A stretch of DNA of 64,000 bases, taken from Tenggerimyces flavus (lineage in GTDB: Bacteria > Actinomycetota > Actinomycetes > Propionibacteriales > Actinopolymorphaceae). Both the position numbers and the translations under genes were made by a program. Under the pieces are notes generated by a model. That model was not told where the DNA came from. It searched no databases and was given only the letters and a program-made list of their open reading frames with translations. The stretch spans positions 7,417,420 through 7,481,419 of the forward strand of contig NZ_JAFBCM010000001.1 in assembly GCF_016907715.1 (NCBI RefSeq). The letters run 5' to 3'. Below are positions 23,590 through 28,057 of this stretch, one piece after another. Within the stretch, counting starts at the first letter, position 1. Each line of letters starts with the position of its first letter.

Positions 23590-24537
23590 ATGCGTGCCGA
23601 TCGGCTGCTCCGCATCGTCTTCCGACTGCAGGGCCGAGGCGTGGTGTCCGCGTCGACGCTCGCCCGCGAGCTGGAGGTCTCGGCCCGGACGATCCGGCGC
23701 GACATGATCGCGCTCTCCGCCGCCGGCGTCCCGGTCTACTCGACCCGCGGCGGCGCGGGCGGGTGGGCGCTCGTGCAGGACTACCGCACGAGCCTGACTG
23801 GTCTGTCCACCACCGAGGCGCTCGCCACCATCGTCGGAAGGCCGCGCGGCATCCTCGCCGACCTCGGCCTGGACGAGCCGGGCGAGGACCTGATCCTCAA
23901 GCTGCTGGCCGCGGTCGCCCCCGCCGCGCGGGAGCACGCCGAACACGCGCGACAGCGGATCCACATCGACCCGACCCGCTACTGGGACACGGTCGCGAAC
24001 GACCCGCTGCCCCTCCTGCCCCCGCTGCTCGCGGCGATCTGGGACGACCGGGTCGTCGAGCTGGAGTACGGCCTCGGGCACCGGTCGACTCGGGTCGCGC
24101 CGTACGGGCTGGTGCGCAAGGGCACCCGCTGGTACCTCGTCGGTCAGGCCGACGGCAAGCTCCGGCTGTACCGGGTGTCCCGGATCCACGAGCTGGCGAC
24201 GACCGAGGAGACGTTCGAACGCCCCGACGGCTTCGACCTCGCGAGCCACTGGGAGCAGTCCCAGGACGAGTACGCGCGACGGTTCGGCTCGTACCGGATC
24301 CGACTCAAGCTGCGCGGCGACGCGCTGGTCCGAGCCGGCTGGGCGTACGCCAGGAGCAAGAGGTTCGCCGACCCCGACGAGGACGGCTGGGTCGAGGCCG
24401 AGTTCGACACCGAGGACTACGACAGCGCCATCGGCCTCGTCGGCTCCCTCGGCGCCGACCTGATCGTCGAAGAGCCCGACCACGTACGCGAAGTCCTCAT
24501 CGAAAACGCGCGACGCCAGCTCGAGCTCAACCGCTGA
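23590..24537 (+). CDS. WYL-domain transcriptional regulator with N-terminal HTH, 315 aa
   Basis: Residues 1-60 form an HTH_11/DeoR-like wing (LARELEVSARTIRRDMIALS then VYSTRGGAGGWAL). The WYL domain lies around residues 150-215 (VELEYGLGHRSTRVAPYGLV, KGTRWYLVGQADGKLRLYRV). A C-terminal extension follows and ends in ENARRQLELNR. WYL domains sense small ligands or nucleic acid ends. It is divergent from the VOC-GNAT pair, which it probably controls. Its stop overlaps the opposing vWA gene by 11 bp. Confidence 0.85.
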   Translation: MRADRLLRIVFRLQGRGVVSASTLARELEVSARTIRRDMIALSAAGVPVYSTRGGAGGWALVQDYRTSLTGLSTTEALATIVGRPRGILADLGLDEPGEDLILKLLAAVAPAAREHAEHARQRIHIDPTRYWDTVANDPLPLLPPLLAAIWDDRVVELEYGLGHRSTRVAPYGLVRKGTRWYLVGQADGKLRLYRVSRIHELATTEETFERPDGFDLASHWEQSQDEYARRFGSYRIRLKLRGDALVRAGWAYARSKRFADPDEDGWVEAEFDTEDYDSAIGLVGSLGADLIVEEPDHVREVLIENARRQLELNR

Positions 24538-26413
24538 GCGCGTCGCTCCCGCCGCGGCGGCGCAGGAACAGGAAGACCGCGGCCGCGACCGCCGCCAGGC
24601 CGACTCCGCCGAGGATCAGGCTGAGGCCGGACAGGCCGCCGCCTTCCCCGCCCTCGCCGGACGACGCTTTGCTGTCCGTACGGTCGCCGGTCGGCGTCAC
24701 CTCCGGCGTGGCACCCGAGGTTGCGCTCGGGGTCGCCTCCGGCGTCGCGCTGGGCGACCCGTCGATCGGCACCTCGGTGAACACCGGCTCGCCCCCGGGG
24801 GTGCCACTGGTGGCGACGTCGAGCTCGAACGGCACCGCGACCGAGGCGTTCCGCGGGGAGTCCTGCAGGTAGACGGTCACGAAGTACGCGCCGCCAAGAG
24901 CGGGACCGGCGTGCGAAGCGCTGCCGAGCCGTGGAAACGCGATCGTCCCGGTCGTCGAGGCGAGCTCGGTCGAGCCGTCGGTGAGCAGCAGCCGGTCCCT
25001 GCTGGTCACCGGACTGGTGAAGGCCGCGCTGGCCGGTGCCCGGCTCGGCGCGAACAGTTCCACGATCGTGTGCGCGTCCTCAGCCGCTGCCGCACTGCCG
25101 CCGCGCAAGGCCGGAAAGCCCACCGCCGCGTCGACCTGCTGGCCCCAGGTCGCGTCGACCGCGAAGGTCAGCGTCTCCCCGGGCACGATCGTGCCCTGGT
25201 AGCTGCCGGCCCCGATCGACTCGGCGTCGGCGAACGAGGTGCCTCCGGTGACCGCCTTGCGCGAGCCGTTCGGCGGCGGGGTCCAGGTGTTCGGGTTCGC
25301 AGGGGCGGTCAGGGTCTCCGGGTCGGTCACCTCGGGCACCTCGGTCACCCGGATCTCCAGCGCAGCGCCGTCGGAGTCGGTCCCGCGGTACGTGACAGCG
25401 AGGACCAGCTCTGAACTGGTCAGGCACTCCTCCTGCTGGGTGTACGGCGAGGCGCTGGCCGCCGTGGACAGCAGCTTGCCGTTGCCCGCGACCCCGGTCT
25501 TGAAGGCGCACCTGGTGCCGCTCGGCGTGGTCAACTCGACATCGACGAAGTCGCCGCCGGACTGGCTGGCTCGGTACGCCGCGCTGGCGACCACGGACGA
25601 GTTCAGCAGCGCGCGCTTGATCAGGTAGTGCTTGGCGGGCGTCGCCGCGTCGACAGCGTCCAGCCAGTCTCCGGGAGCGATCTCCGGCGCGCCCTCGGGT
25701 GTGGCGGTGCCCGTGACCGGCCGGCCGACCGGGACGTACGGACGGGCGGCTCGCTTGGCGACCGCACTCAGCGAGTCGGCGAGCTCCTGGCTGCTGTCGA
25801 CGTCGTAGTACACGCCGCCACCGGCGCGCGCGACACACTGCAGGTCCTTGCGAGCGGCGGCGTTGACGCTGAGGCCGACCACGTCGATGCGGACCTCGAT
25901 GCCCTGCTTGCGGAGTTCCTTGGCGACGAGGCACGGGTCGGGAGCACAGGTCGGCTCACCGTCGGAGACCAGGATGATGGTGCGCCGGCCCTCTCCGCCG
26001 ACGTCCTTGCCCGCTTCCCGCAGCGCGTAGCCGGTCGGCGTCTCGCCGTACGGCTGGTACGCGCCGATCGCGCTCAGCAGTGCCGCTCGGTTGCCCGTGG
26101 CGGGCTTCACGACCAGCTGCGAGTCGGTGCAGGCGCCGGGGTCCTTCCGGGCGAACACCTTCGCGCCGTACACCCTCAAGCCCACGGCCTGGTCGTCCGG
26201 CAGCTGCTCGACGACCTGGCGCAGCGCCTTCTTGGCCGCCTGGATCCGGGTCTCGCCGCCGCCGGCCGGCTCCTTCATCGAGCCCGACGAGTCGAGCACC
26301 AGCAGGACCCTGCCGGGCTGGTCGTCGGCTCTGCTCTCCCCCGCACCGAGAAGGGTGGCGAACGCCGCGAGCAGCACGGCCACCACACCGATGCGCCCCA
26401 CTCGAGTCACCAT
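24527..26413 (-). CDS. Secreted, membrane-anchored vWA-domain protein, 628 aa
   Basis: A signal peptide (VVAVLLAAFATLLGAGESRA) is followed at once by a von Willebrand A domain with a complete MIDAS start, D41-S-S43-G-S45. Later come RTIILVSDGEPTCAPDPCLV and a domain end near residue 215. The middle part is beta-rich with cysteines. A low-complexity linker (ATPEATPSATSGATPEVTPT) leads to a C-terminal helix LSLILGGVGLAAVAAAVFLF with RRRGG, so the protein faces outward, held by one helix. It is divergent from an HTH gene and a Ser/Thr kinase across a perfect palindrome (26437-26456). A signalling role with those genes is inferred. Confidence 0.8.
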   Translation of the reverse strand: MVTRVGRIGVVAVLLAAFATLLGAGESRADDQPGRVLLVLDSSGSMKEPAGGGETRIQAAKKALRQVVEQLPDDQAVGLRVYGAKVFARKDPGACTDSQLVVKPATGNRAALLSAIGAYQPYGETPTGYALREAGKDVGGEGRRTIILVSDGEPTCAPDPCLVAKELRKQGIEVRIDVVGLSVNAAARKDLQCVARAGGGVYYDVDSSQELADSLSAVAKRAARPYVPVGRPVTGTATPEGAPEIAPGDWLDAVDAATPAKHYLIKRALLNSSVVASAAYRASQSGGDFVDVELTTPSGTRCAFKTGVAGNGKLLSTAASASPYTQQEECLTSSELVLAVTYRGTDSDGAALEIRVTEVPEVTDPETLTAPANPNTWTPPPNGSRKAVTGGTSFADAESIGAGSYQGTIVPGETLTFAVDATWGQQVDAAVGFPALRGGSAAAAEDAHTIVELFAPSRAPASAAFTSPVTSRDRLLLTDGSTELASTTGTIAFPRLGSASHAGPALGGAYFVTVYLQDSPRNASVAVPFELDVATSGTPGGEPVFTEVPIDGSPSATPEATPSATSGATPEVTPTGDRTDSKASSGEGGEGGGLSGLSLILGGVGLAAVAAAVFLFLRRRGGSDALSG

Positions 26414-26436
26414 GCCCGCACTCCCACCTGGACGAG

Positions 26437-27057: not shown

Positions 27058-27067
27058 GCTCTCGCGC

Positions 27068-28057
27068 GTGGGCGACATCGTGGGTGGGCGCTTCGAGCTC
27101 ATCGACGTCCTCGACGCCGGCGGCTCCGGCACGGTCTGGCGCGCCTGGGACCACCGTGAGCGGGAGTACGTCGCCGCCAAGGTGCTGCGCGCCGCGGACT
27201 CAGACTCGCTGATCCGCTTCATCCGCGAGGCCAAGCGGGTCGTCCAGCACCCGCACACGCTGGCGCCGCGCAACTGGGTCGGCGAGGACGACCGGATCCT
27301 GTTCACGATGGAGCTCGTGCGCGGCGGCTCCGTGGCCACGTTGCTCGGCGACTTCGGGGCGCTGCCCGAGGGCTGGGTGATCGAGCTGGCCCACCAGGCC
27401 GCGGACGCGCTGGTCGCCGTCCACGCCGCCGGGTTCGCACATCGCGACGTGAAGCCCAGCAACCTGCTGCTGGACGCCACCGGGCAGAGCCGACCGCGGC
27501 TGCGGCTCGGCGACTTCGGCATCGCGGCCGCCTTCGACGGCACGCGCCTGACCGTCGCGAACGTCGTTCTCGGCACCCCCGGCTACCTCTCCCCGGAGGC
27601 CTATCGTGGCGCCGACCCGGCGCCGGCTCAGGATCTGTTCGCCCTGGGCGTGGTGATGCGGAAGATGCTAGCTGGCAACGGAACGCCGAACGTCCTCGAG
27701 CTCGACGGTCTGCCGGGATCGACCGACCTCCTGCGGCTGCTCGCCGAGCTGCTCGCCGAGGACCCGGCGTCGCGGCCGGCCTCGGCATGGGAGGTCCGCT
27801 CACGGCTGGGCGAGCTCCGAGAAGCTGGCGACGTGGCGTACGTCATCGACCCAGCAGACCCGGTCGAGGTCTTCGACCACATCCCGCCGCTGCCGGCCGG
27901 GTGGGGCGAGACCGGCCCGAAGGAACAGCGCTCCCCCACACCCGCACCTGCCACTCCGGCCGGTCGCCGACCAGCCCGCCGGCGCCCACCGCTGGCAGCC
28001 TGGCTGCTGCTGGTCGCGGGTATCGCGCTGCTCGCGGTCGCCGTCCTCACTCGCTGA
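27068..28057 (+). CDS. Membrane-anchored Ser/Thr protein kinase, 329 aa
   Basis: Standard kinase motifs are in order: glycine loop DAGGSGTVW (16-24), Lys38 in VAAKVL, Glu54, HRDVKPSN (125-132) with catalytic Asp127, DFG (149-151) and [10 protein letters not shown] (169-178). After residue 270 a Pro/Arg-rich linker leads to one C-terminal helix ([19 protein letters not shown]) with almost nothing outside, so it lacks a sensor domain of its own. The likely start is GTG 27068 just after the HTH gene. It may take its signal from the divergent vWA protein, which is inferred. The 3' end overlaps ligA by 11 bp. Confidence 0.88.

Follow-up and report, generated by a model that had tools for sequence, protein, structure and literature searches.

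How can a membrane-bound Ser/Thr kinase that has no outer domain be tied to a signal and to a target promoter? Many bacterial Ser/Thr kinases lack a visible sensor, and to our knowledge few have known dedicated transcription factors and target promoters. The question is raised by a locus of Tenggerimyces flavus within a stretch of 64,000 nucleotides (NCBI RefSeq assembly GCF_016907715.1, contig NZ_JAFBCM010000001.1, positions 7,417,420 to 7,481,419 of the forward strand), which was analysed as a whole and is called the window. Here the gene of a surface protein with a von Willebrand factor A (vWA) domain is divergent from the genes of a helix-turn-helix (HTH) protein and a kinase, with a perfect palindrome in between. 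Judged by comparison with related loci, the three genes are a conserved, locally regulated cassette and the palindrome is probably an operator; both the operator and the vWA gene as its target are well supported by this comparison. The genes and the palindrome lie where the initial annotation had placed them:

24527..26413, minus strand: vWA surface-protein gene; 628 amino acids, with a signal peptide, a vWA domain with a full metal ion-dependent adhesion site (MIDAS), a beta-rich ectodomain and a C-terminal transmembrane (TM) helix
26536..27057, plus strand: HTH regulator gene; 173 amino acids, with a lambda/434-like HTH and C-terminal helices (predicted); probable Streptomyces coelicolor counterpart SCO3859
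27068..28057, plus strand: Hanks-type Ser/Thr kinase gene; 329 amino acids, tail-anchored by hydropathy and without an ectodomain; probable S. coelicolor counterpart SCO3860
26437..26456, no strand: perfect palindrome ACGTTTAC-N4-GTAAACGT; core GTTTAC-N4-GTAAAC at 26439-26454, overlapping the vWA -10 box

The intergenic DNA between the divergent vWA and HTH genes is 122 bp long, the distance from the palindrome to the start codon is 23 bp on the vWA side and 79 bp on the HTH side, and the kinase gene starts 10 bp past the HTH stop codon.

Relatives of the HTH protein were found in 61 of 196 genomes of the order. The first sample consisted of 60 loci (40 of mostly 13 kb, 20 of 3 to 13 kb, and the window, with one repeated place dropped), some of them cut by contig ends, and since they were chosen for holding an HTH relative they count its companions and not the prevalence of the set. 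Relatives of all three genes were present in 55 of these loci, HTH and kinase only in three, and HTH and vWA only in two, and the kinase of this family was present in 58 of the 60 despite changes in order and orientation. The flanks vary: only three families recur in most of 41 loci (in 38, 33 and 32 of them) and the next family is found in 10, the rarer families being left unnamed. The commonest gene order has the kinase and vWA genes convergent and the HTH gene divergent from the vWA gene; the order of the window is also found in L069, L197, L199 and L208 (L numbers designate loci). In a second sample of 80 HTH-relative loci of named genomes, 77 of them from Streptomycetaceae and one (L121) a repeat of another (L031), the kinase gene comes immediately after the HTH gene in 78 and lies somewhere in the locus in 79. 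The earlier claim that the three genes belong together is thus borne out by the 55 of 60 complete loci and the 78 of 80 adjacent pairs. When 396 genomes were sampled across the phylum and up to eight candidates were scored per genome, 12 genomes matched, namely this one and 11 of one other genus, probably Streptomyces.

The initial annotation had also looked to the palindrome for conservation across actinomycetes. Its general form, GTTYGC-N4-GCRAAC, is conserved, and the vWA-HTH intergenic regions share GTTTGC-N4-GCAAAC; its exact sequence is not, the form of the window being absent among the perfect dyads of 29 relatives. Where the vWA and HTH genes are divergent, at least 10 of the 12 positions were matched in 26 of 30 intergenic regions, compared to 6 of 1484 length-matched windows drawn at random from these loci. 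When five-base half-sites were searched in 31 regions, a spacer of 4 was found in 25, of 5 in 9 and of 11 in 14; no region had a spacer of any other length from 0 to 10. Because the consensus was derived from the sequences that were scored, further tests were sought in vWA genes standing elsewhere, gene order, Streptomycetaceae, kinase genes and the number of sites. The site precedes 50 of 54 cassette vWA genes, as against 35 of 1080 shuffled regions, and it was found in none of the 22 upstream regions of vWA relatives that stand elsewhere, which rules it out as a general trait of vWA relatives. In nine loci (L045, L059, L062, L195, L200, L201, L206, L211 and L212) the HTH gene, with the kinase gene directly behind it, has no site and the site is before the vWA gene. 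All 77 Streptomycetaceae HTH genes have an upstream site, most often GTTCGC-N4-GCGAAC, and in this family the genes that code for the ectodomain only have one in 23 of 52 upstream regions compared to 77 of 1040 controls. When a strict G-type rule was applied to all loci, the site was found at 115 of 140 HTH genes and 55 of 87 vWA-type genes, and in 184 of 5560 random windows in which the true sites are included. A dedicated site at the kinase genes is ruled out (3 of 135), and where the kinase gene directly follows the HTH gene it may share the HTH promoter. Because the operator stays with the vWA promoter through changes of gene order and is absent before vWA relatives elsewhere, it is the vWA gene that the HTH protein seems to target. 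One locus (L050:6962-12499) has three very similar vWA genes in tandem with the operator at the first only; its kinase gene is cut by the end of the stretch.

In the window, ACGTTTAC-N4-GTAAACGT has a single exact match, where 0.04 matches with up to three mismatches are expected by chance. When ACGTTTACN4GTAAACGT was searched in the 8.52-Mb genome with up to two mismatches it was found in two places, and exactly only at the cassette; the core GTTTAC-N4-GTAAAC without mismatch is present in a single copy, so that no second exact core in this genome points to a wider regulon. Likewise, exact GTTTGC-N4-GCAAAC occurs once per genome, at the cassette, in eight genomes of the order that were chosen for having that form. 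Perfect sites of the broader GTTYGC type number 41 in 12 genomes (2 to 6 in each), of which 12 are at cassettes.

The position of the operator bears on the sense of regulation. In the window it overlaps a promoter-like sequence directed at the vWA gene, with the operator core starting within the -10 box:

26452..26480, minus strand: vWA promoter-like TTGACT-17-TACGTT; -35 at 26480-26475, -10 at 26457-26452; consensus match only

In seven relatives (L043, L044, L046, L048, L060, L065 and L067) the operator starts at the last base of a TTGACA box, and in L093, as read by eye, it fills the 17-bp spacer of TTGACA-TATATT and a second site lies past the -10 box. The operator overlaps the promoter in 11 of the 12 vWA-side regions that pass a strict promoter rule. 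A TTGAC box is directed at the vWA gene in 14 of 31 regions and at the HTH gene in 3, and wherever TTGAC places a promoter one site lies between the -35 box and the start region or just downstream, except in L049, which has no scored site. In some loci another site precedes the TTGAC box, and the sites then number two or three. Because the operator sits where a bound protein should hinder RNA polymerase, we infer that the HTH protein represses the vWA gene and often itself too.

Two segments of the HTH protein are of particular concern to such a mechanism:

26683..26709, plus strand: predicted recognition helix, residues 50-58; contains Q55, and changes of residue 55 go with operator base 5
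26848..26880, plus strand: linker of low model confidence, residues 105-115, probably disordered; within a Thr/Ser-rich stretch, candidate segment for phosphorylation (putative function)

The HTH protein had no Pfam or NCBIfam match at E 0.01. Of three relatives scanned, one was above the HTH_31 cut-off and the others matched HTH_31/HTH_3 below it. Its AlphaFold model has a mean predicted local distance difference test (pLDDT) score of 82, with the HTH helices within residues 24-84, residues 105-115 below 50, and C-terminal helices. With Foldseek the model gave weak matches to Stl, lambda, P22 c2, C.BclI and HigA proteins, and no solved structure matched the whole of it at E 0.001 or better. 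The predicted HTH helices, the weak fold matches, the HTH_31/HTH_3 matches of relatives and the covariation of residue and base described next would suit a repressor of the lambda/434 type (XRE). With repressors of the lambda/434/P22 type the protein would share the HTH fold, as predicted, and a dyad site on a core promoter; unlike them, no phage context is seen beside its gene. No recognised ligand-binding domain was seen in domain scans or in the structure model. Residues 99-118 contain Thr in 137 of 137 sequences (16.0% Thr compared to 3.5% elsewhere), which is a hint only, as disordered linkers are often Thr-rich and most of these rows are Streptomyces. The linker of the window has its Thr residues at T107, T110 and T112.

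Residue 55, which lies within the predicted recognition helix of the AlphaFold model, is presumably aligned with Gln33 of 434 repressor. Members with Q55 and a scored site have G at both fifth bases of the operator in 118 of 127 cases, and members with H55 in none of 5 (three C/C, one A/C and one A/A), counts that are not independent as the Streptomyces rows are near-copies and L061 and L204 are nearly identical. The tree has H55 at two supported positions, one being a clade of four members and the other L207. Eight further members with Q55 are not G/G, some of them since the scoring chose a site other than the main one; these and the window, which has Q55 and A at base 5, rule out a simple one-residue operator code. 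The sequences support a joint change of operator base 5 and residue 55 of the HTH protein, with an incomplete link between the two.

The kinase gave a PF00069 match with E 2.8e-33, and all its Pfam matches were to kinase-fold families; the closest solved chain is PknA. The Hanks-type motifs AAK, HRD-KP-N, DFG and GTPGY-APE are present in the consensus of 38 sequences that include that of the window, two low-scoring rows having been dropped. Hydropathy places one TM helix near the C-terminus, followed by two residues:

27992..28048, plus strand: kinase C-terminal TM helix, residues 309-327; hydropathy

By hydropathy the kinase thus has no signal sequence, a single C-terminal TM helix and a short tail, as a tail-anchored protein has, and such insertion is predicted. 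A kinase is present in 136 loci: in 111 no more than 15 residues follow its TM helix, in 12 the tail is longer, 12 are cut or unreadable and one has no TM helix, so that the outer domain is missing, as had been noticed in the window, in 111 of the 123 with a scorable C-terminal TM helix. A second type of cassette is found in genus g5 (L051-L058, L064 and L066; genomes of 8-9 Mb), where 74-95 kinase residues with two Cys follow the TM helix, and mostly the operator form has an extra half-site.

The most likely role of the kinase would be to phosphorylate the HTH protein, because of the linkage of the two genes and the precedents of PknL-Rv2175c and PknH-EmbR. In M. tuberculosis PknL-Rv2175c, according to an excerpt of PMC4601284, Thr9 in a disordered segment is the phospho-acceptor and a phosphomimetic abolishes DNA binding; the table of that source, unlike its text, lists the effect of Rv2175c phosphorylation as unaffected. 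That pair is also a Hanks-type kinase with an HTH regulator, but of another HTH fold, and the excerpt describes no conserved operator or surface vWA target for it; in the cassette, phosphorylation would be suggested by analogy. PknH is likewise a membrane Ser/Thr kinase that acts on a DNA-binding regulator, EmbR, of envelope genes, and phosphorylation stimulates binding by EmbR (PMC4601284, excerpt). Unlike the proteins of the cassette, in which neither feature is seen, EmbR has OmpR-type and FHA domains and PknH a solved extracellular sensor.

The vWA protein matched PF13519 and PF00092 above cut-off. Its two extracellular parts are:

25748..26311, minus strand: vWA domain, residues about 35-222; PF13519/PF00092 and structure model
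24794..25732, minus strand: beta-rich ectodomain, residues about 228-540; no Pfam match at E 1; structure model

By hydropathy, the protein of the window and most of the relatives listed have an N-terminal hydrophobic signal and a C-terminal TM helix, and the MIDAS residues D41, S43, S45, T125 and D151 do not vary among ten aligned sequences, the window's included. The structure model (mean pLDDT 69) has the vWA domain at 35-222 and, beyond it, beta-rich parts that extend to about 540. Its fold is matched best by vWA proteins, the first of them from Catenulispora, and at a low TM-score also by a tandem collagen-binding domain. The ectodomain has no Pfam name, and an adhesive or wall-binding role of the protein would be a guess. 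In L045 and L059 a second surface protein that matches the ectodomain only stands between the kinase and a full vWA protein. The initial annotation had likened the gene set to TerY-P triads, in which the vWA protein TerY is, as we take it, cytoplasmic. The likeness goes as far as a vWA protein with a Ser/Thr kinase. In the cassette no recurrent fourth gene and no phosphatase are found, the vWA protein is at the surface with a signal peptide and TM helix, the kinase is tail-anchored and has no zinc-ribbon match, and an HTH protein and operator are present, whereas the TerY-P triad has a PP2C-like phosphatase and a zinc-ribbon kinase (PMC11090510, excerpt); the resemblance is therefore set aside.

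A description of the three genes as a set, or of the operator, was not found in the openly available papers that were searched. SCO3859/SCO3860 are the probable counterpart in S. coelicolor. SCO3860 (576 amino acids) is listed as a predicted tail-anchored Ser/Thr kinase, outside the five proteins assayed for insertion (PMC3087755, excerpt), and its tail resembles the kinase tails of the Streptomyces loci. Gene numbering and order suggest that SCO3859 is the HTH counterpart; it is among ten proteins captured by DNA affinity on ssg cell-division promoters, a result that its authors say needs validation (PMC4457907, excerpt). In the excerpts of these two papers the genes are not treated as a cassette and no operator is named. 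The 'SCO3859' of PMC9779433 is a label on primers for SCO3589 and was discarded. SCO3857 is reported to affect spore maturation (PMC3878966, excerpt), and the excerpt of PMC5537264 and the listing of PMC5069765 concern SCO3857 as well.

The explanation that we favour, and regard as reasonably probable, is that the HTH protein is a repressor which acts on the vWA operator and is switched by the linked kinase. The HTH protein, as a dimeric repressor of lambda/434 type, would bind GTTYGC-N4-GCRAAC (GTTTAC-N4-GTAAAC in the window) on the vWA core promoter, as its sequence and that of the site suggest, and would often act at its own promoter as well. The tail-anchored, sensorless kinase would phosphorylate the HTH protein, perhaps in the disordered Thr-rich linker, and phosphorylation would relieve or set the repression of the surface vWA protein. 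The input would be the state of the membrane or cell wall, and there may be feedback from the vWA protein to the kinase.

Several observations weigh against this explanation. The loci that were scored had themselves supplied the operator consensus, which was read off by eye, the exact palindrome of the window was found in no relative, and the strict promoter rule was passed by only 12 of 31 vWA-side regions. A dedicated site is present at only 3 of 135 kinase genes, and a kinase gene that does not follow the HTH gene seems to be outside the regulon. No phosphatase is present among the families that recur in most of the 41 loci. At residue 55, the window combines Q55 with A/A at base 5, and four of the five H55 members are one clade. 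When presence was counted by genome in the order, with two different E-value limits and kinship uncorrected, the ectodomain and the HTH protein were both present in 52 genomes, the HTH protein only in 9, the ectodomain without the HTH protein in 24, and neither in 111. L083, whose HTH protein is nearest to the window's (49%), lacks a kinase within its 12.5 kb; it shows no clear operator, and one of the window's form was looked for there and not found. In 79 loci of the named-genome set (one repeat dropped; mostly Streptomyces) the ectodomain is present without a vWA domain in 53, a vWA domain in 13, and neither in 13, ten of which are short loci; the surface gene is often reduced in Streptomyces (L084-L162), with an ectodomain and mostly no vWA domain in the stretch covered. 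Finally, 29 of the 41 perfect GTTYGC-type sites are outside the cassette, and the reversed pattern used as a control gave none in ten genomes and one in each of two. Because these sites exceed their control, the regulon may be wider than the cassette, and our confidence in the full mechanism is slightly lower. Of the seven among these 29 that were read, three are intergenic by a simple gene caller and four lie within genes, one gene in three genomes accounting for three of the four. The three intergenic dyads (L237:3377, L239:3319 and L240:3358) are possible further targets.

Four other explanations were considered. In the first, which we find doubtful, the regulated vWA protein is also the sensor, and the surface vWA/beta-sandwich protein reports to the kinase through the membrane in a closed loop. 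The vWA protein would in any case be at least an output and not simply the missing sensor, and it may have a sensor role also. In the second, that of the initial annotation, the vWA protein is an extracellular sensor whose signal reaches the HTH protein via the kinase, and the output of the HTH protein is elsewhere. This would fit with a kinase without an ectodomain in most relatives, an anchored surface vWA protein with its MIDAS intact, the linkage of the three genes, the perfect sites outside the cassette, and the capture of SCO3859 on ssg promoters, which is awaiting validation according to its authors (PMC4457907, excerpt). We nevertheless consider it unlikely, as the conserved site is on the vWA promoter itself, there is no second exact core in the genome and eight genomes of the order have a single GTTTGC-type site each, four of the seven non-cassette sites read are inside genes, vWA relatives exist without an adjoining kinase or HTH gene, and many Streptomyces loci without a vWA domain retain the HTH gene, the kinase gene and the operator. 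As it was stated, with the vWA protein as sensor and the HTH protein as output, the proposal does not stand, since the operator tracks the vWA promoter and the vWA gene therefore looks like the target.

In the third, the vWA gene is under a repressor circuit made up of the HTH protein and the palindrome, and the linked kinase is only a passenger with other substrates. The near absence of sites at kinase genes (3 of 135) agrees with this, but the kinase is kept in 58 of 60 loci despite changes of order and orientation and in 79 of 80 named-genome loci, and the HTH protein has no recognised ligand-binding domain that could supply a signal otherwise, so that we hold a passenger kinase to be decidedly unlikely. 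The fourth, in which phosphorylation would switch on the HTH protein to activate the vWA gene, is very improbable: it could draw on the extra site upstream of the TTGAC box in loci with two or three sites in all and on the stimulation of EmbR binding by phosphorylation (PMC4601284, excerpt), but wherever TTGAC places the promoter, except in L049, a site lies between the -35 box and the start region or just downstream.

The repressor-kinase explanation points to the cassette being a widespread actinobacterial signalling circuit of the kinase-plus-HTH kind that is uncharacterised in the open literature. The cassette gathers in one place a kinase, a regulator, a local operator, natural variants of specificity and a probable counterpart in a model Streptomyces, and with it the substrate of the kinase, how the kinase is switched and why a surface protein is so controlled become directly testable.

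The ectodomain of the window is closest (52%) to a vWA protein of genome G111 (L214:6341-8011) which has no cassette beside it. Because this relative and the nearest HTH relative, L083, differ, parts of the cassette of the window may have been exchanged.

The neighbours in the window are, by Pfam, genes of a WYL regulator and of LigA. The gene of the WYL-type regulator (23590-24537) shares 11 bp with the 3' end of the vWA gene, and WYL relatives are also found near the cassette in L051, L054, L058 and L064. The ligA gene (28047-30137) is convergent with the kinase gene and overlaps its end by 11 bp; in a Mycobacteriales metagenome-assembled genome (L093, from base 3) a ligA match lies about 5 kb before the HTH gene. 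Elsewhere in the window, the 2-kb block with the lowest G+C is 12001-14000, with 0.591 compared to 0.637-0.723 in the other blocks, and few genes are predicted between about 11.1 and 16.8 kb.

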